Of a stretch of 64,000 nucleotides of DNA, positions 15,563-43,837 are shown piece after piece. Each line of letters begins with the position of its first letter. The stretch's first letter is position 1. The notes beneath the pieces were generated by a model. The model saw only the letters and a list, made by a program, of their open reading frames with translations. It ran no database searches and was not told the DNA's origin. The stretch is taken from the NCBI RefSeq assembly GCF_001542815.1, contig NZ_CP006992.1, forward strand, positions 248,001 to 312,000, read 5' to 3'. This stretch comes from Methylobacterium sp. AMS5 (lineage in GTDB: Bacteria; Pseudomonadota; Alphaproteobacteria; Rhizobiales; Beijerinckiaceae). The position numbers and the translations under genes are program-made.

Positions 15563-17023
15563 GTGACGGCGGACGTTGACAGGCATGAACTCCGGCAGAT
15601 CATCGCCGGCCTGAGCGAGGGCGTGATCCTGGTCGAGCCCGACCAGACCATCGCCTACGCCAACGAGGCCGCGCTTGCCATGCACGGCGTCGAGACCCTC
15701 GACGGACTGGGCGCGACCGTCGATGCCTACCGCGAGCGCTTCGCTCTGCGCTACCGCAACAATCGCGCGCCCGAGCATTATCCGATCGAGCGGGTCGTCG
15801 CCGGCGAGCGTTTCCACGATGTCGTCGTCGAGGTCCGGCGGCCCGACGCGCCGGACGTCTACTTCGTCCACTCGCTCCGCAGCTTGGTCGCCACGGATCG
15901 TGACGGCGGCCCGAGTTGCCTCGCCCTCATCCTCAAGGACGTGTCGGATCAGTTTGAGGCCGAGGAGCGCTTCGAGAAGACCTTCAACGCAAACCCGGCG
16001 CCCGCCGTCATCACCCGGCTGTCGGACCTGCGCCACGTCAAGGTGAACGCGGGCTTCCTGGAGATGACGGGCTATGTCCGTGATGCCGTCATCGGGCGCA
16101 GCGTCTACGAGGTCGATGTGCTGGCCGGCGCCCGCAACCGCGACCTCGCCGTGTCGCGCCTGAACGAGGGCGGCACCATCCCGCAGATGGAAGCCTGCCT
16201 CAACCTGCCGGATGGCGGTTCGCGTTTCGTCATCGTCGCGGGCCAGCCCATCGAGATGGGCGAAGAGCCCTGCATGCTGTTCACGTTCGCCGACCTCGAA
16301 CTGCGCCGGAAGGCCGAGACCGCGCTCCGGCAGAGCGAGGCGCGCTTCGCCACGGCGTTCCGGTTGACCCCGGTGCCGACGCTGCTGGCGCGCCTGGACG
16401 GCTTCACGGTGACCGGCATCAACGACGCATTCACCCGCGTCTTCGGCTACGGCGAGGACAGCGTGGTCGGGCGCTCCCCATCCGAGACGGGGCTGTGGGT
16501 TGCGGATGCAGCCCGCGAGCGGTTCGAGGAGGCGGTCGGGCGCACCGGTTTCGTCCCCGGGCAGGAGGTCTGCCTGCGCCACCAGGACGGGTCGGAACTC
16601 GACTGCCTCGTCTCCGCCGAGCGCGTCGAGATCGGCGAGGAGACCTTCGCTCTGCTCGTCCTGCAGGACATCACCGAGCGCAAGCGCGGCGAGCGCGACC
16701 TGTTCGAGGCCATCGAGGCGGTGATGGCTGACACCTCGTGGTTCAGCCGCGGGCTCATCGAGAAGCTTGCCAACCTGCGCCAGCCCGGCGGCCACGACGG
16801 CGACGGAGCGAGCCCGATCCTCACCGTGCGCGAGCGCCAGATCTTGAACTTGATTTGTACCGGACTCGATGACGACGCCATCGCCAAGCGGCTCAACCTC
16901 TCCCGCAACACCGTCCGGAATCACGGTGCCGCGCTCTACCGCAAACTCGGCGTCCACAAGCGGGCGGAGGCCGTGATCTGGGGACGCGAGAACGGCTTCC
17001 CGCTCCACCCCGCCGGTACATAA
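15563..17023 (+). CDS. triple-PAS transcriptional regulator with LuxR-type HTH
   Basis: The 486-residue cytoplasmic protein has three PAS-like sensor domains (about 8-120, 135-245 and 255-370) and a C-terminal LuxR helix-turn-helix (TVRERQILNLICTGLDDDAIAKRLNLSRNTVRNH, about 418-455). Connecting segments DVSDQFEAEERFEKTF and DITERKRGERDLFEAI are typical PAC-type linkers. It has no receiver or kinase domain, so it probably senses a small ligand or redox state directly. It lies directly upstream of a run of CsbD/DUF883-like genes in the same direction, which are its most likely targets. Confidence 0.88.
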   Translation: MTADVDRHELRQIIAGLSEGVILVEPDQTIAYANEAALAMHGVETLDGLGATVDAYRERFALRYRNNRAPEHYPIERVVAGERFHDVVVEVRRPDAPDVYFVHSLRSLVATDRDGGPSCLALILKDVSDQFEAEERFEKTFNANPAPAVITRLSDLRHVKVNAGFLEMTGYVRDAVIGRSVYEVDVLAGARNRDLAVSRLNEGGTIPQMEACLNLPDGGSRFVIVAGQPIEMGEEPCMLFTFADLELRRKAETALRQSEARFATAFRLTPVPTLLARLDGFTVTGINDAFTRVFGYGEDSVVGRSPSETGLWVADAARERFEEAVGRTGFVPGQEVCLRHQDGSELDCLVSAERVEIGEETFALLVLQDITERKRGERDLFEAIEAVMADTSWFSRGLIEKLANLRQPGGHDGDGASPILTVRERQILNLICTGLDDDAIAKRLNLSRNTVRNHGAALYRKLGVHKRAEAVIWGRENGFPLHPAGT

Positions 17024-31333: not shown

Positions 31334-33373
31334 TCAGCTCTGCAGCCGCTCCGCGGCCTCGCGCTCGCGCAGGTAATCCTCGGTGGTCCGCGGTTTCGTC
31401 GGCGGCACGGCGTGCGGGTCGAACCCCTGGGTCAGCGCCGACTCGACGCGGCAATCGTCGCACATCATCAGCGAGCGGATGCGCTGCTCGCCGGCCTCTC
31501 CCGAGAACATCCAGTGCCGCTCGCGCAGCTTGCCGATCACCCGCTCGATGGTGGCGCGGGTACCGAACGGCTTGGCGCAGGTGATGCAGCAGAACGGCTC
31601 CTCCTCCTTCACGATCCGGCGGGGCTCGCCCCACGCCTCGAAGTCGATCTGCGGCTTCAGGCTGATCACGTCCTCCGGGCAGGTGGCCGCGCATAGACCG
31701 CACTGCACGCACAGGCTCTCCTCGAAGGCGAGCAGCGGCCGGTCGGTGCTGTCCGACAGCGCGTGGGTCGGGCAGGCGCCGACGCAGGAGAGGCAGAGTG
31801 TGCAGCTCTCCGTGCGAAACGCGAGCCCGCCGAACGGCGCCCCGGCCGCCAGCGGCACCGCGGCCACCGGCGTCGGGGCCGCGGCGTGCATCTCGCGGAA
31901 GGCGAGGCGCAGCATCTCGCGCTTGCCGCCGACGGGCACGAAGCCGGCCGGCACCGTGGTCCCACGGCCGGGAACGTCCGAGCGGAGCGCCGCACCGAGC
32001 GCATCGGGGTCGTCGGTCTCGAGCAGGGCGACGGTCGGCGCCTCCGTGCCGGCACCGTAGCCGAGGGCGTCGGCAAGCGTCCGGGCGAGGGCCACGGTGC
32101 GGTGCAGGCTGTCGAGGTCATGCTTCGGGCGCTCGCGCACCAGCACCCGTGCCCCGGCCGCGCCGTAGGCGAACACGGCGGCGAGAACCTCGGGGCCGAA
32201 CTGCGTCACCTCGTTGACCCGCACCGGCAGGACGTGGGCCGGGAGGCCCTCGCCGTAGCGGCCGAGCGCGTCGATCAACGGCTCGCCATGGTCGCCGTCG
32301 TGGAACAGCACCACCGCGTCCGCACCGCCAGCCGCCCGGTAGGCGCGCATCAGGCTTCGCAGGCGGCGCATCAGCGCGTCGGCGGGCGGCAGGGCGTAGT
32401 TCGCCGCACCCGTGGGGCAGACGGCGGCGCAATTGCCGCAGCCGGCGCAGATATAGGGGTCGATCGCCACCGTATCGCCGGCCGGCGCAATGGCCCCGGT
32501 CGGGCAGACGTCGAGGCAGCGGGTGCAGCCGGTGATGCGCGAGCGGGAATGGGCGCAGAGTTCGCCGCGAAAATCGATGAAGCGCGTCTTGTCGAATTCG
32601 CCGACGAGGTGGGACGCCGCCATCACCGCGCGCTCGACCGACGCCGGGTCGCGCGGGTCGGCCCGCAGATAGCCGCTGCGCAGTTCGTGCGCGGGAAAGA
32701 GCGGCGTGCCGCCGGTCAGATCGAGGATCAGGTCGCAGGTCGAGGCCGCCCCGTCGCGCCCTGCCCCGAACACGAGGTGGGTGCGCGAGGACGGCGCCGG
32801 CAAGGCGTAGTCGTCGATGCGCAGGTCGAATGCGCCGAGATGGCCCGTCGCCCCGCGCACCGTGCCCCGGATCACCGGGAACTCGTTGCGATGGAGCGGC
32901 GCGACCTCACCCGGCCGGCTCAGGAGCACGGTGACGTCGAGATGCTCGGCCAAGCGCCGCCCGGCCTCGATGGCGGCCTCGTCGCGCCCGTAGATCAGGG
33001 CGACGCCGCGGCTCTCCAACGGCACCGTACCGGCAACGGGGACCGCCTCCGCGGCCGCGGCCAGCAGCGCCGCCATCTTCGGACCGGCCCGTTCGGCCTG
33101 AGACGACCATCCGGCGGTCTCGCGGATCTTGGCGAAGGTGACGCGCTCCTCCGCATCCATCTCGGCGGCGATTTCCTCGAAGAGCGGCGCCTGGAGCGTG
33201 CAGGAGACCGTGACGGGCAAGCCCGTCGCCAGAGCCTCGCGGTAACGGTCGAGCTCCCGACCGCAAAGCTGGTCGGCGGTGCGCACGCGGGTGCCGCAAC
33301 CCTTTTCCAGGGCCGCGACATCGAGCGGCATCGTCTTCTCGCAGGAACAGGCGAACACGAGACGATCGGACAC
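31334..33373 (-). CDS. multi-[4Fe-4S] protein of the formate dehydrogenase locus, 679 aa
   Basis: Two pairs of ferredoxin motifs lie in the middle and C-terminal third (GCTRCLDVCPTGA and CAGCGNCAAVCPTGA; CTLCLSCVGACPTHA and CVQCGLCAATCPEDV). Extra cysteine pairs follow near the end (CCITCAKPFGTR, MMCDDCRVE). The N-terminal half has LVFACSCEKTMPLD-type and LIYGRDEA segments, suggesting a HdrA- or NrfC-like redox core. It is cytoplasmic. It is divergent from the accessory operon starting at 33514; similar proteins accompany membrane formate dehydrogenases. It may pass electrons or supply Fe-S clusters; neither is shown. Confidence 0.85.
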   Translation of the reverse strand: MSDRLVFACSCEKTMPLDVAALEKGCGTRVRTADQLCGRELDRYREALATGLPVTVSCTLQAPLFEEIAAEMDAEERVTFAKIRETAGWSSQAERAGPKMAALLAAAAEAVPVAGTVPLESRGVALIYGRDEAAIEAGRRLAEHLDVTVLLSRPGEVAPLHRNEFPVIRGTVRGATGHLGAFDLRIDDYALPAPSSRTHLVFGAGRDGAASTCDLILDLTGGTPLFPAHELRSGYLRADPRDPASVERAVMAASHLVGEFDKTRFIDFRGELCAHSRSRITGCTRCLDVCPTGAIAPAGDTVAIDPYICAGCGNCAAVCPTGAANYALPPADALMRRLRSLMRAYRAAGGADAVVLFHDGDHGEPLIDALGRYGEGLPAHVLPVRVNEVTQFGPEVLAAVFAYGAAGARVLVRERPKHDLDSLHRTVALARTLADALGYGAGTEAPTVALLETDDPDALGAALRSDVPGRGTTVPAGFVPVGGKREMLRLAFREMHAAAPTPVAAVPLAAGAPFGGLAFRTESCTLCLSCVGACPTHALSDSTDRPLLAFEESLCVQCGLCAATCPEDVISLKPQIDFEAWGEPRRIVKEEEPFCCITCAKPFGTRATIERVIGKLRERHWMFSGEAGEQRIRSLMMCDDCRVESALTQGFDPHAVPPTKPRTTEDYLREREAAERLQS

Positions 33374-33513
33374 GATTGAACCTGAGACGATTGGGAGCGC
33401 GAGGGCCTTCGCGCGGAAGCCTGCCTTCCCTATACTCGTATCATTCTAAAACGACGAACGGACATGCGGGCGCAGGTACTCTTCCCAGGACCGTGCCCCG
33501 CCCGAGACCGCCT
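33374..33513. promoter_or_regulatory. divergent promoter region of the Fdh locus
   Basis: This 140-bp stretch separates the multi-Fe-S gene (minus) from the accessory operon (plus). It contains the AT-richer segment CCTATACTCGTATCATTC at about 33428-33445, a reasonable place for -10 elements. Shared regulation of both arms is an inference from geometry. Confidence 0.45.
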
Positions 33514-34272
33514 ATGACCCTCCCCCTCGATATCGGATCGCCGGGCTTGCGCCTCGCGCCGCTCGTCCTGCCGCCGGCCTTCACCGGTCTCGTCGCGGCG
33601 GGCTCTGCGGCGGGGCTGGCCTGCCGGATGGCGGAGAGCGGCGAGGCCGACGCCGCCACCCTCCTCATGGAAGAGCGCGACGACGTCATCGCCTTCGCGG
33701 TGGTGCTGGCGCCGACCGAGCCGCTGGCCACGGCGCGGCGTGCCGTCTTCGTCGGGATGCAGGCGCTCGCCGACGCGGTCGGCGCGTTCGGGCCGCCGGA
33801 GATCCCGGTGACGTTCCAGTGGCCCGCTACGCTGAGCTTCAACGGCGCCCGTCTCGGCGGCGGCGCGCTGCATTGGCCCGAAGGCTGCGACGAGACCGAG
33901 ACGCCGGACTGGCTGGTCTTCTCGGCGATGCTGCTCGCCTCGAAGCGGGATGCGGGCGACCCCGGCCTCACGCCCGACTCGACCTCCCTGGAGGAAGAGG
34001 GTTTCCCGAACGATCTGCGCGAACCCCTGGTCGAGAGCTTCGCCCGCCATCTCACCAAGGCGTTCGAGATCTGGGACGAGGACGGCGCCGCGCGCTCGAC
34101 GGGCCGCTATCTCACCCGCCTCACCCTTCCGCCGGGCGCGCGGGCGACGATCGAGCCGAGCGGCGATGCCCGGCTCGTCCACGCCGACGGCCGTTGCGAA
34201 ACGCTGAAGCTGCGGCCGGCGCTGATCTCCCCCTCCTGGCGTGACCCGGCCACCGGCACGGTGCGGCTGTGA
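33514..34272 (+). CDS. biotin/lipoate ligase-like protein with DUF4444-type C-terminus
   Basis: The 252-residue protein resembles the biotin/lipoate A/B ligase family: DAATLLMEERDDVIAFAVVL, VTFQWPATLSFNGARLGGG, DWLVFSAMLLASKRD. A C-terminal SH3-like part follows (RYLTRLTLPPGARATIEPSG). The usual lysine-containing ligase motif is not obvious, so it may be a degenerate ligase with a binding role. I start at ATG 33514. It is coupled to the next gene by GTGA. Its presence in a formate dehydrogenase operon is unexplained. Confidence 0.75.
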   Translation: MTLPLDIGSPGLRLAPLVLPPAFTGLVAAGSAAGLACRMAESGEADAATLLMEERDDVIAFAVVLAPTEPLATARRAVFVGMQALADAVGAFGPPEIPVTFQWPATLSFNGARLGGGALHWPEGCDETETPDWLVFSAMLLASKRDAGDPGLTPDSTSLEEEGFPNDLREPLVESFARHLTKAFEIWDEDGAARSTGRYLTRLTLPPGARATIEPSGDARLVHADGRCETLKLRPALISPSWRDPATGTVRL

Positions 34273-34835
34273 GTGCGGGCAAGCTGCCGCGGACCCTGCG
34301 GCTCGACCCCTCCGATACCTTCGTCTTCGCGCGGGCCGCCGAGGCCGGCGAATGGGCGGTGACGGGCTCGTTCCTGTTCTTCGATGCCGACCTCTCCGCG
34401 CTTGCGGGCAAGGAGCGGGCGGCGTTCCGCTCCGGTTTCGTCGGCGTGCGCTCGCTCGGCTTCTCGACCCTCGTCGTCGTCAGCGAGGCGAGCGATGCCG
34501 AGCGCGAGGCGGCGATCGAGGATCTCGCCCGCCACATCCACGAGCGCTTCGGCGCGCCGGATCGCGAGGCGGCCCGCGCCGCCGCGCGCGAGGAGATCGA
34601 GGTCGCGGCTTCGCTGTGCAATCTGCCGGTCGGCAGCGTCGTGGCCATGCACCGAAGCGCGCAGGATGGGGAAATCGCGGAAGAATTCCGCACCCTGCAC
34701 CAGCGCGCACCGGGCGCGGACCCGCTGCACGGACGCGCCTTCCACTTCGTCGAGACCGACGAGGACGGGCCCGACGAACAGGCCGACCTCGTGGGACTTT
34801 TGAGCAGCGCCTCCGCGGGGGCTGAGAGAGCATGA
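34269..34835 (+). CDS. DUF6505-like protein, Fdh locus
   Basis: The 188-residue soluble protein starts at GTG 34269, overlapping the previous stop by 4 bases, and its end overlaps the next start. It has LRLDPSDTFVFARAAEAGEW and GSFLFFDADLSALAG-type segments and a helical middle. The family name is my best recollection; no enzymatic motif is visible. The coupling on both sides argues for a function tied to the operon product. Confidence 0.7.
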   Translation: MSAGKLPRTLRLDPSDTFVFARAAEAGEWAVTGSFLFFDADLSALAGKERAAFRSGFVGVRSLGFSTLVVVSEASDAEREAAIEDLARHIHERFGAPDREAARAAAREEIEVAASLCNLPVGSVVAMHRSAQDGEIAEEFRTLHQRAPGADPLHGRAFHFVETDEDGPDEQADLVGLLSSASAGAERA

Positions 34836-35842
34836 CCGAGTTCTGGGTTTCGAGCGGCCACCATCTGACGCAGCGCACGGAAGGGGGCGGCCTCGCCGTC
34901 ACCGACGAGTTGATCCTCGCCTATCTCGCGCGCCCCGAACTGGTGCCGCCGGAGGAGGCCTGCATCGCCGAACGCGCGCTGCACGCCAGCCTTCTGAGCG
35001 ATCCGCGCCGACCGGTCTCGGGCGGCGAACTCCAAAAGATCGCGGACGCGGATGCGCGGGAGAACTGGGAGGTGATGCTGGCCTTCCGCGAACGGCTGCT
35101 CACGGCACGCTCGGTCGAGGCGGCCTATCTCGCACTCGTGCGCGGCGGGTTGCAGGGCGTGCCGGGGCTGTTCCTGACCCAACTCGTGCATCTCATCCTG
35201 CGCAATGCGCTCGACGGCTGCGAAGACCCGTTCGTGCTACGCGCCGCCGAACTGTTCTTCCGCTCGCAGCGCGCCAGCCTGCACGAGGGCGCGGTGCTGC
35301 TGGCGGACGCCGAGGTGATCGAGGCGCGGGAGGGCGGCGCGGCGCTCTCGCCCCTGGTCACGATGCTCGGCAAGGAGGCGGCGAGCGAACTCGACGTGCT
35401 GAACGAGGAGAACGCCTGGACCTATTGGAGCCGCTCGGACGCCTTCACCATGGCGCTGAACCTCGGCACCAGCGGCCGAAGCCGGGAGGGGCTGGCGCGG
35501 GCGATCGAAGCTTTCGTGCGTCACCTCCTCAATGCTGAGGTCACGGTCGCGCCCCTCGACCGGCTGGAGGATCCCGACTGGCGCTGGTTCGTCGGGCTCG
35601 ACGCGGAGGGTACGCGGATCGGCAACGCGCTCTGGCGCGGCGAAGCGCTGGACGACGCCGCCCGCGAGCGGGTGATCGCCGTGTTCAGCCTCACCTTCGC
35701 CGATCCGGCCCGCGTCGATCTGCGGGTCGGCGAGCGGCCGGTCTACCTCCTGCTCGCCATGACGCCGGACAAGACCGTGCAGTTCAAGCCACAGAACCTC
35801 GTCGTCGGATTGCCGCTGGCCTCCGACCGGGCCGCCGCGTGA
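34832..35842 (+). CDS. DUF6352-like protein, Fdh locus
   Basis: The 336-residue soluble protein begins FWVSSGHHLTQRTEGGGLAV, with a helical middle (GVPGLFLTQLVHLILRNALD) and a C-terminal beta part ending in YLLLAMTPDKTVQFKPQNLV. It overlaps both neighbours by ATGA/GTGA. No known catalytic motif is present. It is found in formate dehydrogenase operons of related bacteria (family knowledge); its role is unknown. Confidence 0.72.
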   Translation: MTEFWVSSGHHLTQRTEGGGLAVTDELILAYLARPELVPPEEACIAERALHASLLSDPRRPVSGGELQKIADADARENWEVMLAFRERLLTARSVEAAYLALVRGGLQGVPGLFLTQLVHLILRNALDGCEDPFVLRAAELFFRSQRASLHEGAVLLADAEVIEAREGGAALSPLVTMLGKEAASELDVLNEENAWTYWSRSDAFTMALNLGTSGRSREGLARAIEAFVRHLLNAEVTVAPLDRLEDPDWRWFVGLDAEGTRIGNALWRGEALDDAARERVIAVFSLTFADPARVDLRVGERPVYLLLAMTPDKTVQFKPQNLVVGLPLASDRAAA

Positions 35843-36369
35843 GGTCGGACATGACGCCGGAACAGATTCCGGAAGACCGCTTCGAAGTCGGCATCATCGT
35901 GGCGCGCCGCCGCCTGAAAGGGCCGTGGGCGAGCCATGCCTGGATGCCGATCGAGGCTCTTCCGGCAGCGCCGGAGACCGCGCCCTGGACCCAGCTCTCC
36001 GAGACCGAGGAGGAGGCGACCTTCTACGCGGGCGCCCACGAGGTCACTTTGCACATCGCCGAGACGGCGCATTACCGCGACAACCTCGTCTCCGGCCGTC
36101 CCTCGCTCTGGGTCACGCTGCACGCCACGGCGGAGGACACCTACACGGTGGCGAGCGTGACCGCCGATCCCTACGAGGGCGAATCGATGGCCGAGGGCAT
36201 CGGCGAGATCGTCGAGGCGGTGCCGATGCCGCCCGAGGTGCAGGCCAAGCTGCTCGCCTTCTTCGAGGCCTTCCACATCGAGCGCAAGTTCGAGAAGCGC
36301 AAGCGCGACCGCGCCGACCCCGAGGCCTTGGCGCGCCGCGCGCCGGGCAGGCAGGGGAAGCCGGAATGA
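35839..36369 (+). CDS. DUF3305 domain protein, Fdh locus
   Basis: The 176-residue protein starts at GTG 35839. The core FEVGIIVARRRLKGPWASHA, then WMPIEALPAAP and YAGAHEVTLHIAETAHYRDNL matches DUF3305. The C-terminus is strongly charged (IERKFEKRKRDRADPEALAR). It overlaps its neighbours by 4 bases on each side. DUF3305 and DUF3306 are typically paired beside formate dehydrogenase genes; function is not established. Confidence 0.82.
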   Translation: MRSDMTPEQIPEDRFEVGIIVARRRLKGPWASHAWMPIEALPAAPETAPWTQLSETEEEATFYAGAHEVTLHIAETAHYRDNLVSGRPSLWVTLHATAEDTYTVASVTADPYEGESMAEGIGEIVEAVPMPPEVQAKLLAFFEAFHIERKFEKRKRDRADPEALARRAPGRQGKPE

Positions 36370-37076
36370 GCGGCAGCTTCCTCTCTCGCTGGGCCCGCCG
36401 CAAGGAGGCCGTGCGCGCCACCGAGCGAACCGTTGCGCCCGCGATCACGGATCGGCCCGAGGCAGAGGTCGCTCTCAGGGCGGAGGCGCCTAACGGCGAG
36501 GAATCATCCGCGCCGCAGCCTCTCGCCCTTGCCGGCGACGAACCGGAGGCGGGGACGGACGATCTTTTGGCGCGGCTCCCCTCCCTCGACGCCCTGACGC
36601 CGGAGACCGATCTCACCGCCTTCCTCCAGGCCGGCGTGCCGACGGCTCTGCGCAACGCGGCCCTGCGGCGGATGTGGTCGCTCGACCCGGCGATCCGCGA
36701 TTTCGTCAGCGAGGCGCGGGAATACGCCTATGACTGGAACACGCCGGGCGGCGTGCCGGGCATGGGCCCGCTCCTGCCGACCGACGACGTGAAGGCGATG
36801 CTGAAGCGGATCATCGACGGTGTCCCCGTCGCGGCGGAGGAGGAACCGGATACTGAGCGGCAGGACGCTCCGACGGCGTCATCGGAGAGGGCCGCGGAGA
36901 TCTCTGACCCGGCGCCTCCAGAACCCGAGACCGACCCTGCAACCGACGGTGATCCGCTCCCGATGCCGGACCTGCACGCTCCGGTCGCGATTGCCGCCAT
37001 AGAGGCCCCTGAAGTCGTACAACCCGCCCTCCCCCGGCCTCGCCTGCGGCGCCATGGTGGGGCGATGCCCTCGTAA
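36366..37076 (+). CDS. DUF3306 domain protein, Fdh locus
   Basis: The 236-residue protein begins with FLSRWARRKEAV. It has the conserved LPSLDALTPETDLTAFLQAG and ALRRMWSLDPAIRDFVSEAR, followed by EYAYDWNTPGG. The rest is acidic, Pro/Ala-rich and probably disordered. The ATG at 36366 overlaps the DUF3305 stop. Together the two may form an assembly or regulatory pair for the dehydrogenase; this is inference. Confidence 0.82.
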   Translation: MSGSFLSRWARRKEAVRATERTVAPAITDRPEAEVALRAEAPNGEESSAPQPLALAGDEPEAGTDDLLARLPSLDALTPETDLTAFLQAGVPTALRNAALRRMWSLDPAIRDFVSEAREYAYDWNTPGGVPGMGPLLPTDDVKAMLKRIIDGVPVAAEEEPDTERQDAPTASSERAAEISDPAPPEPETDPATDGDPLPMPDLHAPVAIAAIEAPEVVQPALPRPRLRRHGGAMPS

Positions 37077-37163
37077 TTCACGCGCATTTCGATTGCGGCG
37101 AAGCCAAACGCTTTTTATTATCGGTCCAAACAAGCGGTCCTCCAGATGGGCCCGAGGGAAACG

Positions 37164-37799
37164 ATGGGTTCGGTCGCGTCGGTGATGGCACTTCCGGGAG
37201 ATGAGGTGTCTGGAGTCGTCGGCGTTCCGGACGACATCGACCTCCTGCGCGCACAGCAATACGATCTCTTGGCTGCGCTGCTTGGCCGTGCACCGGGTTC
37301 GACGCTGCTCGCGGCGCTTGCCGCCTTGAAGGAGGGCGACGGGGTTCTGGGCCGGCAGGTCGCGGCCCTGCGCCGTGCGGCGGACGAGACCGACACGGAG
37401 GCCGTCGAGCGCGAGTTCTTCGCGCTGTTCATCGGCGTCGGCCGCGGCGAGCTTCTGCCTTACGCCTCCTACTACCTCACCGGCTTCCTCAACGAGCGTC
37501 CGCTCGCCCGCGTGCGCGAAGATTTCGCCGCGCTCGGCATCGAGCGGGACGAGTCGATGAGCGAGCCGGAGGATCATCTCGCGATCCTTCTGGAGGTGAT
37601 GGCCGGACTCGCGGCCGGGCGGTTCGAGGCGGAGCCCGGCATGCAGGCGCGCTTCTTCGCCCGGCACGTCGAACCCTGGGCGGACCGTTTCTTCGCGGAT
37701 CTGGAAACGGCGAAGGCGGGCCGGTTCTACCGCGCGGTCGGGGGACTCGGACGCGCCTTCATCGAGATCGAGGCGGAAGCCTTCGCCATGGAAGGCTGA
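37164..37799 (+). CDS. TorD/DmsD-like molybdoenzyme chaperone
   Basis: The 211-residue all-helical protein has the TorD family pattern (LRAQQYDLLAALLGRAPGS, EREFFALFIGVGRGELLPYASYYLTG, EPEDHLAILLEVMAGL). These chaperones bind the Tat signal of a molybdoenzyme and hold it until the cofactor is inserted. The ATG at 37164 has GAGGG five bases upstream; a longer start at 37146 is possible. The likely client is the Tat-signal Fdh alpha subunit encoded 330 bp downstream. Confidence 0.88.
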   Translation: MGSVASVMALPGDEVSGVVGVPDDIDLLRAQQYDLLAALLGRAPGSTLLAALAALKEGDGVLGRQVAALRRAADETDTEAVEREFFALFIGVGRGELLPYASYYLTGFLNERPLARVREDFAALGIERDESMSEPEDHLAILLEVMAGLAAGRFEAEPGMQARFFARHVEPWADRFFADLETAKAGRFYRAVGGLGRAFIEIEAEAFAMEG

Positions 37800-37875
37800 A
37801 GGGCCGCTCCGTCGTGACAAATGGAATCGAGGCGTGTTGTCCCAAAGCAGGCAGCCGCCGAAGGAGATGAGGGTG

Positions 37876-38121
37876 ATGCGACAGGATCCGAAGACGCTCG
37901 GTCGTCGCCAGTTCTTTCGGGCGCTCGGCGGCAGCACAGTGGCCGCCGCGGCCGCCGTCGCCTCGCCGATGGGGGCGACCGAGGCCCAGGCCTACGATCC
38001 CGGCAACGACGAGACCAAGGCCCGTTACCGGGAGAGCGACCACGTGAAGGCGTTCTACCGGACCAACGGCTACGAGACGCTCAAGAAGAACACCGATCCG
38101 GCCTCGACCGGTCCGAAGTGA
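37876..38121 (+). CDS. Tat-signal small protein of formate dehydrogenase operons
   Basis: The 81-residue protein has a twin-arginine leader (GRRQFFRALGGS) followed by a hydrophobic stretch and AQA, so it should be exported folded. The mature part is only about 40 residues (DETKARYRESDHVKAFYRTN). The start at 37876 has AAGGAG nine bases upstream. It directly precedes the alpha subunit gene by 7 bp and may be a small subunit or escort; the mechanism is unknown. Confidence 0.85.
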   Translation: MRQDPKTLGRRQFFRALGGSTVAAAAAVASPMGATEAQAYDPGNDETKARYRESDHVKAFYRTNGYETLKKNTDPASTGPK

Positions 38122-38128
38122 GGCTGCC

Positions 38129-41071
38129 ATGCTGATCAAGCGCAAGAGCGGCGACGCTGCTCGCACCAAGCACCAAGCCGTCGCCGCCGGCCTCGCCGCG
38201 GGCGTGCTCGACCGCCGTGCCTTCCTCCGTAAGTCCGGGCTGACCGCCGGCGCGCTCGCCGCGGCCGGCACGATCCAGCTCGGCTCGGTGCGCAAGGCGC
38301 AGGCCGCCGGCTCGTCCGCCGTCGGGCCGGACACGGTCATCAAGAAGAACGTCTGCACCCACTGCTCGGTCGGCTGCACGGTGACAGCCGAGGTCGTGAA
38401 CGGCGTCTGGGTCGGCCAGGAGCCGTCCTATGCCAGCCCGATCAACCGCGGCACGCACTGCGCCAAGGGCGCGGCGATCCGTGAGCTGGTCTCGTCCGAC
38501 CGCCGCCTCAAGTACCCGATGAAGCTCGAAGGCGGGCAGTGGAAGCGGATCTCGTGGGATCAGGCCTACGAAGAGATCGGCGACAAGCTGATCCAGATCC
38601 GTGAGAAGAACGGCGCGGATTCGGTCTACTGGCTGGGTTCGGCCAAGTTCACCAACGAGGCCGCCTACCTGATGCGCAAGTTCGCGGCCTTGTGGGGCAC
38701 GAACTCGATCGACCATCAGGCGCGCATCTGCCACTCGACGACGGTGGCGGGCGTGGCCAACACCTGGGGCTACGGCGCCCAGACCAATTCCTACAACGAC
38801 ATCCGCAACGCCAAGACGATGATCATCCTCGGCGGCAACCCGGCCGAGGCGCACCCGATCTCCATGCAGCACGTGCTGTCGGGCAAGGAGATCAACCGCG
38901 CGAACATGATCGTCATCGATCCGCGCTTCACCCGCACCGCGGCGCACGCCACCGAGTATGTGCGGATCCGCTCCGGCACCGACATCCCGGTGGTCTGGGG
39001 CATCCTCTGGCACATCTTCCAGAATGGCTGGGAGGACAAGGAGTTCATCGCCCAGCGCGTCTACGCGATGGACGACGTGCGCAAGGAAGTCGCCAAGTGG
39101 ACGCCCGACGAGGTCGAACGCGTCTCCGGCGTGCCGGGCGAGCAGCTCCGCCGGGTGGCGGAAAAGTTCGCCAAGGAAAAGCCGGCGACCCTGATCTGGT
39201 GCATGGGCGCGACCCAGCACACGGTCGGCACCGCCAACGTGCGCGCGCTGTGCATCCTTTGCCTGGCCACCGGCAATGTCGGCAAGCCGGGCACCGGCGC
39301 CAACATCTTCCGCGGCCACACCAACGTGCAGGGCGCGACCGATCTCGGCCTCGATGTGACGTCGCTGCCGCTCTATTACGGCCTCGTCGAGGGCGGCTGG
39401 CGCCATTGGGCCCGCGTCTGGGACGTGGAGTACGAGTGGCTGCAATCGCGCTTCGATGAGGTTCCGGCGAAGGACGGCCGCAAGGCGCGCACCCGCAAGG
39501 AAAACATGGAGGCGCCCGGCATCACCTCGACCCGGTGGTTCGATGCCGTGAACCTGCCGCCCGAGCAGATCGACCAGCGCAGCCCGATCAAGGCGTTCAT
39601 GGTGTTCGGCCACGGCGGCAACACCGTCACCCGCATGCCCGAAGCCATCGACGGCATGAACAAGCTCGAGCTGCTGGTCGTCGCCGATCCGCATCCGACC
39701 ACCTTCGCGGCGCTCGATGCCCGGCAGGACAACACCTACCTCTTGCCGATCTGCACCTCGCTGGAGATGGACGGCTCGCGCACGGCCTCGAACCGCTCGA
39801 TCCAGTGGGGCGAGCAGATCGTGAAGCCGGCCTTCGAGTCGAAGAGCGACTACGAGGTCCTCTACCGCCTCGCACAGAAGCTCGGCTTCGCCGACAAGCT
39901 CTGCAAGACCATCAAGATCGTCAACGGCGCCCCGGAAGCGGAAGACATCCTGCGGGAGATCAACCGCGGCGGCTGGTCCACCGGCTATTGCGGCCAATCG
40001 CCGGAGCGGCTGAAGGCGCATATGCGCAATCAGCACAAGTTCGACCTCGTGACGCTGCGCGCCCCGAAGGACGATCCGGAGGTCGGCGGCGATTATTACG
40101 GCCTGCCCTGGCCATGCTGGGGCAAGCCGGAGCTGCGCCATCCCGGCTCGGCGATCCTCTACAACACCAACCTCCACGTGAAGGACGGCGGCGGCGGCTT
40201 CCGCGCGCGGTTCGGCACCGAGCGCAACGGCCAGACCCTGCTCGCCGAGAACTCCTTCTCGAAGGGCTCGGACCTGACCGACGGCTACCCGGAATTCACC
40301 TTCGGGGTGTTCAAGAAGCTCGGCTGGGACAAGGACCTGACCCCGGACGAACTCGCCACCATTCTCAAGATCGGCGGTGAGAAGCCGGACACCGTGAGCT
40401 GGGCGACCGACCTCTCGGGCGGCATCCAGCGCGTCTGTCTCGACCACGGCGTCGCGCCCTTCGGCAACGGCAAGGCCCGGGCCAATGCCTGGAACCTGCC
40501 CGACCCGGTGCCGGTGCACCGCGAGCCGGTCTACTCGCCCCGCCCCGAACTCGTGGCGAAGTACCCGACCCGGCCCGACGAGCGGCAATTGCGCATGCCG
40601 AATATCGGCTTCTCGGTACAGAAGTCGGTGGTGGACCGCGGCGTCGCCAAGGACTTCCCGATCATCCTCACGTCGGGTCGACTCGTGGAATACGAGGGCG
40701 GCGGCGAGGAGACCCGCTCGAACCCGTGGCTCGCCGAGCTGCAGCAGGACATGTTCGTCGAGATCAACACCGGCGATGCCGCCGCCCGCGGCATCAAGGA
40801 TGGTCAGTGGGTCTGGGTCTCGGGTGCCGAGAACAACGCCAAGACAAAGGTCAAGGCGCTGGTGACCGACCGCGTCGGCAAGGGCGTGGCGTTCATGCCC
40901 TTCCACTTCTCCGGTTGGTACCAGGGCAAGGACATGCGCGACTTCTACCCGAAGGGCACCGACCCGGTGGTGCTCGGCGAGAGCGTGAACACCGTAACGA
41001 CCTACGGCTTCGATCCTGTGACGGGCATGCAGGAAACGAAGTGCACCCTGTGCCAGATCGCAGCGGCGTAA
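38129..41071 (+). CDS. fdh3A: formate dehydrogenase alpha subunit (molybdopterin, Cys form)
   Basis: The 980-residue protein has a Tat signal (R29R30AFLRKSG), an N-terminal [4Fe-4S] ligand set C76, C79, C83 and C111 (CTHCSVGC, THCAKG), and the molybdopterin oxidoreductase and dinucleotide-binding domains. In the active-site motif ARICHST the metal ligand is C201 (TGC codon), where Sec-containing enzymes have UGA. It oxidises formate to CO2 on the periplasmic side of the membrane. GAGG lies five bases upstream of the ATG. The name follows the Fdh3 system of Methylobacterium and is an inference. Confidence 0.94.
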   Translation: MLIKRKSGDAARTKHQAVAAGLAAGVLDRRAFLRKSGLTAGALAAAGTIQLGSVRKAQAAGSSAVGPDTVIKKNVCTHCSVGCTVTAEVVNGVWVGQEPSYASPINRGTHCAKGAAIRELVSSDRRLKYPMKLEGGQWKRISWDQAYEEIGDKLIQIREKNGADSVYWLGSAKFTNEAAYLMRKFAALWGTNSIDHQARICHSTTVAGVANTWGYGAQTNSYNDIRNAKTMIILGGNPAEAHPISMQHVLSGKEINRANMIVIDPRFTRTAAHATEYVRIRSGTDIPVVWGILWHIFQNGWEDKEFIAQRVYAMDDVRKEVAKWTPDEVERVSGVPGEQLRRVAEKFAKEKPATLIWCMGATQHTVGTANVRALCILCLATGNVGKPGTGANIFRGHTNVQGATDLGLDVTSLPLYYGLVEGGWRHWARVWDVEYEWLQSRFDEVPAKDGRKARTRKENMEAPGITSTRWFDAVNLPPEQIDQRSPIKAFMVFGHGGNTVTRMPEAIDGMNKLELLVVADPHPTTFAALDARQDNTYLLPICTSLEMDGSRTASNRSIQWGEQIVKPAFESKSDYEVLYRLAQKLGFADKLCKTIKIVNGAPEAEDILREINRGGWSTGYCGQSPERLKAHMRNQHKFDLVTLRAPKDDPEVGGDYYGLPWPCWGKPELRHPGSAILYNTNLHVKDGGGGFRARFGTERNGQTLLAENSFSKGSDLTDGYPEFTFGVFKKLGWDKDLTPDELATILKIGGEKPDTVSWATDLSGGIQRVCLDHGVAPFGNGKARANAWNLPDPVPVHREPVYSPRPELVAKYPTRPDERQLRMPNIGFSVQKSVVDRGVAKDFPIILTSGRLVEYEGGGEETRSNPWLAELQQDMFVEINTGDAAARGIKDGQWVWVSGAENNAKTKVKALVTDRVGKGVAFMPFHFSGWYQGKDMRDFYPKGTDPVVLGESVNTVTTYGFDPVTGMQETKCTLCQIAAA

Positions 41072-41088: not shown

Positions 41089-41685
41089 ATGGCCCGGATG
41101 AAGTTCCTCTGCGACGCGGACCGCTGCATCGAATGCAACGCCTGTGTCACGGCCTGCAAGAACGAGCACGAGGTGCCGTGGGGCATCAACCGCCGCCGCG
41201 TCGTCACCCTCAACGACGGCAAGCCCGGCGAGCGCTCGGTCTCGATGGCCTGCATGCACTGCACCGACGCGCCCTGCGCGGCGGTGTGCCCGGTGAACTG
41301 CTTCTACACCACGGCCGATGCCGTGGTGCTGCACTCCAAGGACATCTGCATCGGCTGCGGCTACTGCTTCTACGCCTGCCCCTTCGGCGCGCCCCAGTAC
41401 CCGCGGGTCGGGAATTTCGGTTCGCGCGGCAAGATGGACAAGTGCACCTACTGCTCGGGCGGCCCCGAGCCCGACTTCTCGACCGCCGAGTACGAGAAGT
41501 ACGGCTCGAACCGCCTGGCCGAAGGCAAGCTGCCGCTCTGCGCCGAAATGTGCTCGACCAAGGCGCTGCTCGCGGGCGACGGCGAGATGATCGCCGAGAT
41601 CTACAAGCAGCGGGTGATCAAACGCGGTTACGGCTCCGGCGCCTGGGGCTGGAAGACGGCCTACCGCGAGACCGTCGCGATCTAA
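41089..41685 (+). CDS. fdh3B: formate dehydrogenase beta subunit, four [4Fe-4S] clusters
   Basis: The 198-residue protein carries four cysteine clusters (CIECNACVTACKNEHE, CMHCTDAPCAAVCPVN, CIGCGYCFYACPFG, and CTYCSGG with CAEMCSTKA). It passes electrons from the alpha subunit to the cytochrome b subunit. There is no signal of its own, so it is presumably exported with the alpha subunit. It begins 17 bp after fdh3A behind GAGGAG. Unlike FdnH it lacks a C-terminal membrane anchor. Confidence 0.94.
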   Translation: MARMKFLCDADRCIECNACVTACKNEHEVPWGINRRRVVTLNDGKPGERSVSMACMHCTDAPCAAVCPVNCFYTTADAVVLHSKDICIGCGYCFYACPFGAPQYPRVGNFGSRGKMDKCTYCSGGPEPDFSTAEYEKYGSNRLAEGKLPLCAEMCSTKALLAGDGEMIAEIYKQRVIKRGYGSGAWGWKTAYRETVAI

Positions 41686-41718: not shown

Positions 41719-41784
41719 GTCCCACCCCCGACCTCCTCCGAGGCCGCAGCGCGGCACCTCTGGATGAGGGGGGTCGGGTGGGAC
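41719..41784. repeat. long imperfect inverted repeat before fdh3C
   Basis: The arms GTCCCACCCCCGACC (41719-41733) and GGTCGGGTGGGAC (41772-41784) pair except for a CC bulge, and flanking TCCTC/GAGG can extend the stem. The loop region contains a second small GC stem. It directly follows the first hairpin. Confidence 0.55.
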
Positions 41785-41841
41785 GCAAACGGCGTGCGCA
41801 GGCTCGGCGGCGTCTCGACAAGGATACGGAAAGGAACGCCG

Positions 41842-42879
41842 ATGCGGCGGGCAGTGACCTTCCTCAACACTCTCATCCTGGCAGCGATGCTCGTCGCGGG
41901 CCCGGCGGCGCTTGCGCCTGCCTTCGCGCAGAACCCGATCCAGGCCGACGGCCAGAACCCGATGGGTGCCCGGCCCACCGCGGATTCGGTCAACGAGGAA
42001 TTCCTGTTCAAGCAGGAATCCAAGATCCGCGGCCGGGTCTCGATCCCCGACGGCAAGTCGGCCAACCTGATCCAGCCGCAGGGTCGCGAGTATCAGAACT
42101 TCCGCGAGCGCTGGCTGCCGTGGATCGGTGCGCTGACCATCCTCGGCATGCTCGCCGCGCTGGCTGCGTTCTTCCTGTTCCGCGGCCGGATCATGATGGA
42201 CCACAGCCAGGAATCGGGAAAGAAGATCCTGCGCTTCAACGCCTTCGAGCGCTTCACGCACTGGATGACGGCGGTATGCTTCATCATCCTGTCGCTGTCG
42301 GGCCTGAACTACATTTTCGGCAAGCGGCTGCTGATGCCGCTGATCGGGCCGGAGGCGTTCGGCGCGATCGCGCAATGGGCGAAGTACAGCCACGTCTACC
42401 TCGCATGGCCGTTCATGCTCGGCGTGGCCTTCATGTTCGTCCTCTGGATCCGGGACAATATCCCGAACAAGGTCGATTGGGCCTGGATCAAGGCCGGCGG
42501 CGGCTTCATCGGCAAGGGCCATCCCCATGCCGCCCGCTTCAATGCCGGCCAGAAGGGTGTGTTTTGGATGGTCGCCGGATTCGGCGCCGCCATGGCCGCC
42601 ACCGGCCTGATGATGCTGTTCCCGTTCGCGCTCACCGACATCAACGGCATGCAGGTGATGCAGGTGATCCACTCGGTGATCGGCATCGTCTTCATCGCGG
42701 GCATCCTCGCCCACATCTATATCGGCACGCTGGGCATGGAGGGCGCCTACGACGCCATGGGCAGCGGCAAGGTCGATCTCGCCTGGGCGCGCGCGCACCA
42801 CGACCTCTGGGTCGAGCAGGAGCAGGCGCGCACCGGCAGCGGCCCACAGCTCAAAGGGCATCCCGCCCCCGCGGAGTGA
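41842..42879 (+). CDS. fdh3C: formate dehydrogenase gamma subunit (cytochrome b)
   Basis: The 345-residue protein has a signal peptide ending near AFAQ and a periplasmic stretch of about 70 residues. Membrane segments follow: WIGALTILGMLAALAAFFLF, AVCFIILSLSGLNYIFG, WPFMLGVAFMFVLWIR, FWMVAGFGAAMAATGLMMLF and VIGIVFIAGILAHIYIG. Histidines in ERFTHW, KYSHVYLAW and LAHIYIG are the likely heme b ligands. It delivers electrons to quinone. I start at ATG 41842 behind AAGGAA. Confidence 0.92.
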   Translation: MRRAVTFLNTLILAAMLVAGPAALAPAFAQNPIQADGQNPMGARPTADSVNEEFLFKQESKIRGRVSIPDGKSANLIQPQGREYQNFRERWLPWIGALTILGMLAALAAFFLFRGRIMMDHSQESGKKILRFNAFERFTHWMTAVCFIILSLSGLNYIFGKRLLMPLIGPEAFGAIAQWAKYSHVYLAWPFMLGVAFMFVLWIRDNIPNKVDWAWIKAGGGFIGKGHPHAARFNAGQKGVFWMVAGFGAAMAATGLMMLFPFALTDINGMQVMQVIHSVIGIVFIAGILAHIYIGTLGMEGAYDAMGSGKVDLAWARAHHDLWVEQEQARTGSGPQLKGHPAPAE

Positions 42880-42974: not shown

Positions 42975-43214
42975 ATGAAAGCCTTCCTCGCCGCCGTGAT
43001 GGCCGCCATCGCCCTCGGGGTGCTGGCGATGTTCGCGCTCACGAGCAACCAGAAGTTCGCCTATCAGGCCTTCGCGACCTCCGGGGCGCGGGTGTCGGAG
43101 CCCGGCACCAACCTCGTCGGTCCCCGCTGGAACGGCGATCCGAAGCCGGACGAGTACAACGGCGAGCCCCACGGCAAGGCCGAGGGTGAGGCCTCGAACC
43201 CGAAGCGCTCCTGA
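42975..43214 (+). CDS. small single-pass membrane protein, Fdh locus, 79 aa
   Basis: An N-terminal hydrophobic segment (MKAFLAAVMAAIALGVLAMF) is followed by a Gly/Pro/Asn-rich periplasmic tail ending in KRS. It lies 95 bp after fdh3C in the same direction, probably on the same transcript. No enzyme motif is visible. It could be a small subunit or stability factor of the membrane complex. Confidence 0.7.
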   Translation: MKAFLAAVMAAIALGVLAMFALTSNQKFAYQAFATSGARVSEPGTNLVGPRWNGDPKPDEYNGEPHGKAEGEASNPKRS

Positions 43215-43258
43215 GCGAACTCGAGAAACCTGATAACGAGGATGGGGGAGTGAGCCCG

Positions 43259-43837
43259 ATGAAGCCTTCGCCGATCATCCGGCACCTCGCCGGCGGCCTC
43301 GCGGCCTGCGCGCTTTTCGCGGGCAGCGCCATGGCCCAGGATGCAAGCCCGAGCGCGCCCGCTGCGCAGCAGGCTTCGGGCAAGCCGGCCAATCTCTGCC
43401 AGGAACTGGTCACGTTCGTGAAGCAGCCGGAGCCGGCCAACAAGGCCGCGGCGACGCCTCCGCAGCAGGCCACCGCCGTCTCGAACCCCTCCGGCAAGAC
43501 CGAGGGCGGAAAGCCGGCGGATGGCGGTGAGCCTCAGAAGACGTCGGGCCTCAGCGGCGCCGTCAACGAGACCGCACCAAGCCGCGCGACCGGCAATCCG
43601 GCGGACAACCCGAACGCCAAGGCGAACGCGGCGGCGAAGAATCCCCCTCCCCCGGCGGCGCCCGCGCCGGCCCCGAAGCCGGACCCCGCCACGGTGGAGA
43701 AACTCGAAGCCGCGGCCGGCGCCAACGATCTCGCCGCCTGCCGCGAAGCCGCCCGGTCCATGCGCGTGGCCGGCGTCGTTCTCCCCCCGCCCCTGCTCGC
43801 GCTCGCGGCGTTGGATCTCAAGTTCTTCCAGCCGTAA
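43259..43837 (+). CDS. exported Ala/Pro-rich protein, end of the Fdh operon
   Basis: It starts at ATG 43259 behind GGGGGAG and has a clear signal peptide (LAGGLAACALFAGSAMAQDA). The middle is low-complexity (Ala/Pro/Lys/Asn), and the C-terminus forms a short helical domain (EKLEAAAGANDLAACREAAR, SMRVAGVVLPPPLLALAALD). It has two cysteines in the mature part. Not recognised; it is the last plus-strand gene before a convergent gene. Confidence 0.7.
   Translation: MKPSPIIRHLAGGLAACALFAGSAMAQDASPSAPAAQQASGKPANLCQELVTFVKQPEPANKAAATPPQQATAVSNPSGKTEGGKPADGGEPQKTSGLSGAVNETAPSRATGNPADNPNAKANAAAKNPPPPAAPAPAPKPDPATVEKLEAAAGANDLAACREAARSMRVAGVVLPPPLLALAALDLKFFQP

Follow-up and report, generated by a model that had tools for sequence, protein, structure and literature searches.

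Five overlapping genes (positions 33514 to 37076) lie upstream of the genes for TorD and an FDH3-type formate dehydrogenase (FDH3) in the window, the 64,000-nt stretch of Methylobacterium sp. AMS5 analyzed here (contig NZ_CP006992.1, 248,001 to 312,000 of the forward strand). They encode a relative of biotin protein ligase (BPL), called the pseudo-ligase below, and proteins of the DUF6505, DUF6352, DUF3305, and DUF3306 families. We propose, with a probability of roughly 0.6, that these genes constitute a cytoplasmic accessory set for the maturation or proofreading of FDH3, with the pseudo-ligase as its protein-binding part.

The accessory genes co-occur with FDH3

We surveyed two draws of whole genomes with completeness of at least 90%, 153 Alphaproteobacteria and 259 Pseudomonadota, each holding one genome per species (some genomes were common to both, five of these with FDH3). 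FDH3 was scored as present when its beta subunit matched the model NF038355 above the cut-off, and the Fisher P values given here ignore shared descent. FDH3 beta was found in 23 of the 153 Alphaproteobacteria; in one of them (genome G001), the match came from a fragment at the end of a contig and barely passed the cut-off. DUF3305 was found in 24, namely, all 23 FDH3 genomes and G107 (P = 2e-26), and DUF6352 in 20 (P = 2e-19). DUF6505 was above the cut-off in 15 (P = 5e-13), a count that leaves out a match below the cut-off in G076, which has no FDH3. In the phylum draw, the genomes with FDH3 beta and those with DUF3305 were the same 41. The preliminary description of this locus had held that a link to formate dehydrogenase would fail if these genes were commonly found without the enzyme. 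On the contrary, FDH3 beta accompanied DUF3305 in 23 of 24 carriers in the class and 41 of 41 in the phylum, DUF6352 in 19 of 20 and 18 of 18, DUF6505 in 14 of 15, and the pseudo-ligase in 34 of 34.

The pseudo-ligase was present in 16 Alphaproteobacteria, all with FDH3, and a further test found it in 18 of 36 other FDH3 genomes versus 0 of 25 without FDH3. Overall, 34 of 59 FDH3 genomes carried it versus 0 of 155 others (P = 8e-24; 11 of the 155 were judged by reading a match and most by score). Among six genomes of the window genus, three had FDH3, DUF3305, DUF6352, and the pseudo-ligase, and three lacked all four. These data are strong evidence that the accessory genes are dedicated to FDH3. 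DUF3305, on which the count was made, and with it DUF3306, is a core whose presence matches that of FDH3 with hardly an exception. The other three genes (pseudo-ligase, DUF6505, and DUF6352) make up an add-on module whose carriers in our draws were mostly Alphaproteobacteria.

The ligase-like protein has lost its active-site motifs

The window protein matched PF16917 (BPL_LplA_LipB_2) with 200.8 bits (cut-off, 27). Real BPLs also match this profile, so the match alone is misleading. Thirty-one loci with PF16917 matches were read, including those of nine FDH3-less genomes, all of which proved to be real BPLs, as did both matches among the 25 FDH3-less genomes of the further test. The remaining matches were judged by score (pseudo-ligases, at least 125.8 bits; BPLs, at most 114.7 bits); G104 (80.7 bits) and G020 (64.8 bits) were among those judged by score alone.

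For the comparison we used what we take to be the active-site motifs of BPL, the GxGRxGR nucleotide/biotin loop and the lysines of KWPND and KxxGIL. In the alignment, the loop was deleted in all 34 pseudo-ligases, including the window protein, and neither lysine was kept in any (0/16 and 0/18; the window protein reads QWPAT and RLGGGA). All nine BPLs aligned alongside showed the lysines and the loop, the latter in variants (a strict loop pattern flagged two of the nine). The window genome encodes its own BPL at C1:901000, with a loop of the GRGR type (judged by eye), KWPND, and KLAGIL. Nine columns were fully conserved among 16 pseudo-ligases (four P, two W, one A, one G, and one R). When 27 pseudo-ligases were placed in one tree with 14 BPLs, one branch separated the two kinds (support, 99/96; 98% of 200 bootstrap trees), a topology compatible with the inactive form having arisen once. 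It is therefore close to certain, as far as sequence can tell, that the window "ligase" is a BPL relative that has kept the scaffold and lost the active-site motifs, and the suggestion in the preliminary description that it might be a degenerate ligase is borne out. Relative to the BirA catalytic domain, it has a homologous scaffold and differs by the deleted loop, the lost lysines, and its restriction to FDH3 genomes in our draws.

The fold is already solved: the window protein matched PDB entry 3bfm over residues 17 to 191 (E = 5.3e-22). This member of the same family was deposited as "Biotin protein ligase-like protein of unknown function," and we found no report in the open-licence literature linking it with formate dehydrogenase. 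Three pseudo-ligases from another class of the phylum (L233 to L235, from G298, G213, and G274) were most like that of G018 (family f19), a likeness across classes that suggests transfer of the module.

Locus organization and gene linkage

Reading frames and Pfam matches confirmed the gene arrangement proposed in the preliminary description, five genes overlapping by four bases and then TorD and the Fdh genes. The features are as follows; the Pfam matches of the five accessory proteins and TorD were all above the cut-off.

31334 to 33373, (-) strand: polyferredoxin (4Fe-4S), with Pfam Fer4 matches; divergent from the accessory genes
33514 to 34272, (+) strand: pseudo biotin protein ligase (PF16917), 252 amino acids; Pfam 1.8e-59; 3bfm match
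34269 to 34835, (+) strand: DUF6505 protein (PF20115), 188 amino acids; Pfam 1.7e-54
34832 to 35842, (+) strand: DUF6352 protein (PF19879), 336 amino acids; Pfam 1.7e-56
35839 to 36369, (+) strand: DUF3305 protein (PF11749), 176 amino acids; Pfam 5.1e-38
36366 to 37076, (+) strand: DUF3306 protein (PF11748), 236 amino acids; Pfam 2.6e-20
37146 to 37799, (+) strand: TorD/DmsD-type chaperone (PF02613); Pfam 3.2e-32
37834 to 38121, (+) strand: formate dehydrogenase region TAT target (TIGR02811), with an RRQFF motif; profile match
38129 to 41071, (+) strand: FdhA, the FDH3 alpha subunit, Cys type (ARICHS), with an RRAFL twin-arginine motif
41089 to 41685, (+) strand: FdhB, the FDH3 beta subunit (NF038355); 342 bits, cut-off 240
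41764 to 42879, (+) strand: FDH3 gamma subunit, cytochrome b561 type (PF01292); Pfam match

Adjacent accessory genes share exactly four bases, GTGA or ATGA, at every junction (34269-34272, 34832-34835, 35839-35842, and 36366-36369), and a gap of 69 bases separates DUF3306 from TorD. The RRAFL of FdhA, at residue 29, is predicted from the motif to be a twin-arginine translocation (Tat) signal. The ligase-like frame has a second in-frame start, TTG at 33376, upstream of 33514; the position aligned with 33514 was ATG in all four near relatives (L003 to L006), which came from a single-protein scan of genome contigs (an alignment query might reach further). The promoter region of the locus was well conserved in five close relatives. 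The closest relatives that carry a name were Methylorubrum and Methylobacterium.

Overlaps of four bases recurred at all four junctions in the same four near relatives and in Bradyrhizobium sp. 184 and at one of four junctions in Sinorhizobium meliloti LMB1. None was seen at the tested junctions of G053 (four), G064 (four), G116 (two), and G091 (two), and the same kind of overlap joined unrelated ABC transporter genes in one record (98-101 and 16040-16043). The overlaps thus vary between lineages and also occur in genes of other function, and we rejected them as an argument for a complex; the stoichiometric complex that the preliminary description had drawn from the four-base coupling does not follow from it.

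We fetched 43 stretches of the surveyed genomes and mapped the genes on them. The pseudo-ligase and FdhA were on the same stretch in 13 of the 16 Alphaproteobacteria with a pseudo-ligase, the window genome included. All five genes preceded TorD and FDH3 in the window order in S. meliloti LMB1 and Bradyrhizobium sp. 184; because annotated records of Sinorhizobium meliloti and Bradyrhizobium repeat this order, we do not regard the arrangement as due to chance. In Sulfitobacter dubius, the order was polyferredoxin, DUF6494, Mrp/NBP35, pseudo-ligase, DUF6505, with DUF6352 not listed. In searches of plasmid records, the ligase-like protein gave 84 records and DUF6352 gave 10, and the surroundings were viewed at three places. 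Elsewhere the genes were dispersed or split by assembly. A contig end falls between DUF3305 and DUF3306 in G020, and the module and FDH3 are on different contigs in the drafts G089 and G116. On the single contig of G023, DUF6505, DUF6352, and FDH3 are all present more than 95 kb apart; in G133, about 67 kb separate DUF6505 from DUF6352, with FDH3 on other contigs. The association with FDH3 is more than linkage, since co-occurrence persists when the genes are far apart.

Properties of the accessory proteins

The peak 19-residue hydropathy among the five proteins was 1.55, with no strongly hydrophobic segment, and because of this low peak they look soluble. None matched FdhE in a Pfam scan up to an E value of 1, none matched PF02613 (TorD), which the product of the sixth gene alone matched, and none had a DNA-binding domain above the Pfam cut-off. 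The window DUF3305 protein matched positions 221 to 371 of the 382-position NCBI model NF011058, a MobA-DUF3305 fusion, with 75 bits (E = 3.8e-21), far below the cut-off of 820 bits for the whole fusion. The AlphaFold models were of fairly high confidence, with a predicted local distance difference test score (pLDDT) of 80.1 and a predicted template modeling score (pTM) of 0.72 for DUF6505 (residues 151 to 188, low confidence) and of 86.1 and 0.87 for DUF6352. A fold search of the DUF6352 and DUF6505 models against the PDB gave no match, a weak negative, as the models were built on close relatives (69-92% and 65-94% identity). Sequence searches of the PDB with DUF6505, DUF6352, DUF3305, and DUF3306 gave nothing useful.

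Relation to published systems

The preliminary description had presented the locus as its best candidate for an undescribed maturation system. For DUF3305 and DUF3306 this does not stand: a 2015 survey of the NarJ subfamily (PMC4464133) reports, in the passages concerned, that they occur in 60% of linked dmsD-fdhGHI operons, and its DUF3305-DUF3306-dmsD/torD-fdhGHI operons are the same as the corresponding part of the window locus. Those passages call the two proteins putative membrane proteins, whereas the window proteins have no hydrophobic segment. DUF6505 and DUF6352 do not appear in the text of the survey, and the ligase-like gene is not named in the relevant passages. We found no paper in the open-licence literature tying DUF6505, DUF6352, or a ligase-like or pseudoenzyme gene to formate dehydrogenase.

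FdhE, an accessory protein of the periplasmic enzymes FDH-N and FDH-O, serves a late cytoplasmic step for exported formate dehydrogenases according to the relevant part of a review (PMC10609526), the role proposed here for the five proteins, none of which matches it in Pfam. FdhE (PF04216) was found in none of the 23 FDH3 Alphaproteobacteria and not in the window genome, and it was above the cut-off in 5 of the 153. Regarding the TorD/DmsD/NarJ chaperones, TorD belongs to the window operon, and the five accessory proteins have no match to the family; the same part of the review describes a TorD homologue, Campylobacter FdhM, in a periplasmic fdh operon. Cofactor maturation of a formate dehydrogenase in a related organism is the subject of work on the MoeA1-MobB-MobA-FdhD tungsten pathway for MeFDH1 of M. 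extorquens (PMC13197769, 2026); it deals with FDH1, and the terms "FDH3," "TorD," and "DUF" are absent from its main text.

Proposed role and alternatives

What is said here about a role in maturation, about the step concerned, and about any physical contact is what we infer as likely. Because FdhA and the small Tat protein bear RR motifs and the five proteins have no hydrophobic segment, the five would act in the cytoplasm before Tat export of FdhA. There the set would hold, load, or proofread apo-FdhA during insertion of the bis-molybdopterin guanine dinucleotide cofactor (with molybdenum or tungsten) and of iron-sulfur clusters. The DUF3305/DUF3306 core and the pseudo-ligase/DUF6505/DUF6352 add-on would serve as holding or checking factors, a reading based on their predicted cytoplasmic location, on the systematic association of fdhE with periplasmic formate dehydrogenase operons stated in the review cited above (PMC10609526, in the part concerned), and on the lack of an FdhE match here. 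The pseudo-ligase would most likely contribute a binding surface only, with DUF6505 as its likeliest direct partner. Gene neighbors, counted over 50 long loci (some without FDH3), are in favor of maturation: MobA and FdhD in 7, MoeA in 4, Mrp/NBP35 in 7, and an ABC transporter with a PBP_like_2 binding protein in 10 to 12 (e.g., L196:15231-17454 [-] and L194:622-2891 [-]) are all maturation genes. A bolder version, FdhE-independent maturation of FDH3 without known parallel, would have the disabled ligase as a docking platform joined by the new-fold proteins DUF6352 and DUF6505, and DUF3305/MobA coupling tungsten or molybdenum and iron-sulfur loading to Tat export; we offer it tentatively and think it rather doubtful.

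Several observations weigh against a maturation set of five. Exceptions to co-occurrence exist: G107, the sole one for DUF3305, has no FDH3 beta above the cut-off; G006, a draft of 810 contigs in which FDH3 may have been lost or left unassembled, has DUF6352 without FDH3 beta above the cut-off; and G101 has a DUF6505 gene with an internal stop and no FDH3 beta. The add-on genes are dispensable in evolution. Among the 23 FDH3 Alphaproteobacteria, 7 lack the pseudo-ligase, 9 lack DUF6505, and 4 lack DUF6352; G060 has DUF3305 alone of the four surveyed genes, G018, G081, and G131 have the pseudo-ligase and DUF6505 without DUF6352, and 18 of the 36 further FDH3 genomes lack the pseudo-ligase. Draws of one genome per species are not independent lineages, and the tests are blind to descent. 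The absence of FdhE alongside FDH3 is not significant alone (P = 0.44), since FdhE is scarce across the class. A passage of the 2015 survey (PMC4464133) reports that 97% of the species with TorD-fdh operons have FdhD/E in trans, which is hard to square with the absence of FdhE if FdhE itself is meant. Finally, the searches with the DUF6352 and DUF6505 models gave no fold relative and hence no structural pointer to a chaperone.

One other explanation is that the five proteins, or some of them, are not assembly factors but stay permanently with FDH3 as cytoplasmic partners or subunits, or with a cytosolic electron branch that includes the polyferredoxin. The strict co-occurrence of DUF3305 with FDH3 beta fits a subunit equally well, and of the 28 long loci fetched with FdhA on them, 20 contained a polyferredoxin homologue. 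We nevertheless consider it unlikely, given that FdhA with its Tat motif is expected to leave the cytoplasm, that nothing resembling a signal is seen in the five, and that the add-on genes are often absent where FDH3 is present. It is also possible to see the pseudo-ligase as a carrier that binds a small molecule or cofactor (e.g., a pterin or nucleotide) in a remodeled pocket for delivery to FDH3. The scaffold of BPL has a fold that binds ligands, and the neighbors are cofactor genes; however, all 34 proteins have a deletion of the loop with which BPL closes over its ligand, and the nine fully conserved columns contain no new polar motif, leaving a small probability for this role.

A regulatory module that senses molybdenum, tungsten, or formate and controls fdh3 expression would accord with the helix-turn-helix/PBP_like regulator found in 6 of the 50 long loci, several of them with it beside the module. 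That regulator is encoded apart from the five genes and was not seen in the window, and the five proteins have no Pfam DNA-binding domain above the cut-off, making regulation very improbable. The preliminary description had also raised the possibility that the ligase modifies an Fdh component. An active biotin or lipoate ligase is suggested by Pfam and database names alone and was rejected as next to impossible, barring a mechanism without precedent: the loop, the catalytic lysine, and the KWPND lysine are gone in all 34 homologues, and a genuine BPL is encoded elsewhere in the window genome. Chance clustering or hitchhiking beside fdh has in its favor that gene order varies and some genes are unlinked; we give it hardly any credence, as FDH3 and the unlinked genes are still found in the same genomes, a pattern that hitchhiking would not lead one to expect.

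FDH3 was present in 23 of the 153 sampled Alphaproteobacteria, yet we found no assigned function for its accessory proteins except TorD. Should the set prove necessary, it might be part of the reason why some exported formate dehydrogenases are difficult to produce in other hosts, and it would provide a clear example of a BPL relative turned noncatalytic partner. The crystal structure 3bfm gains a biological setting, and DUF6505 and DUF6352 become testable in a laboratory methylotroph.

Other neighboring genes

The ABC transporter near the module appears to be of the tungstate type, a hint of possible tungsten use by some FDH3 enzymes. MobA and FdhD directly preceded DUF3305 in four of their seven loci (G041, G133, G109, and G107); in G107, DUF3305, DUF3306, and polyferredoxin lie at L165:6695-11062, with MobA and FdhD adjoining. 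DUF6494 (about 67 amino acids) adjoins the module in many genomes (e.g., L150:6528-6728 [-] and L196:12713-12916 [+]). It was found in 25 of the 153 Alphaproteobacteria, 17 with FDH3 and 8 among the 130 without, but not in the window genome.

Of the 50 long loci, 20 encoded, close to FDH3 or to the module, a protein with WD40 repeats and a single CxxCH haem motif (e.g., L143:11219-12568 [+], L195:4258-5547 [+], and L194:4281-5576 [+]), with no copy in the window; it is a possible periplasmic cytochrome partner of FDH3. In G006 (L163), genes for a WD40 protein and for the binding protein of a transporter lie near DUF6352. In the window, the cytochrome b subunit gene is followed by a small gene at 42975-43214, with no Pfam match, and downstream of it by another at 43250-43837, which encodes a Pro/Ala-rich protein of 195 amino acids with a signal-like start.

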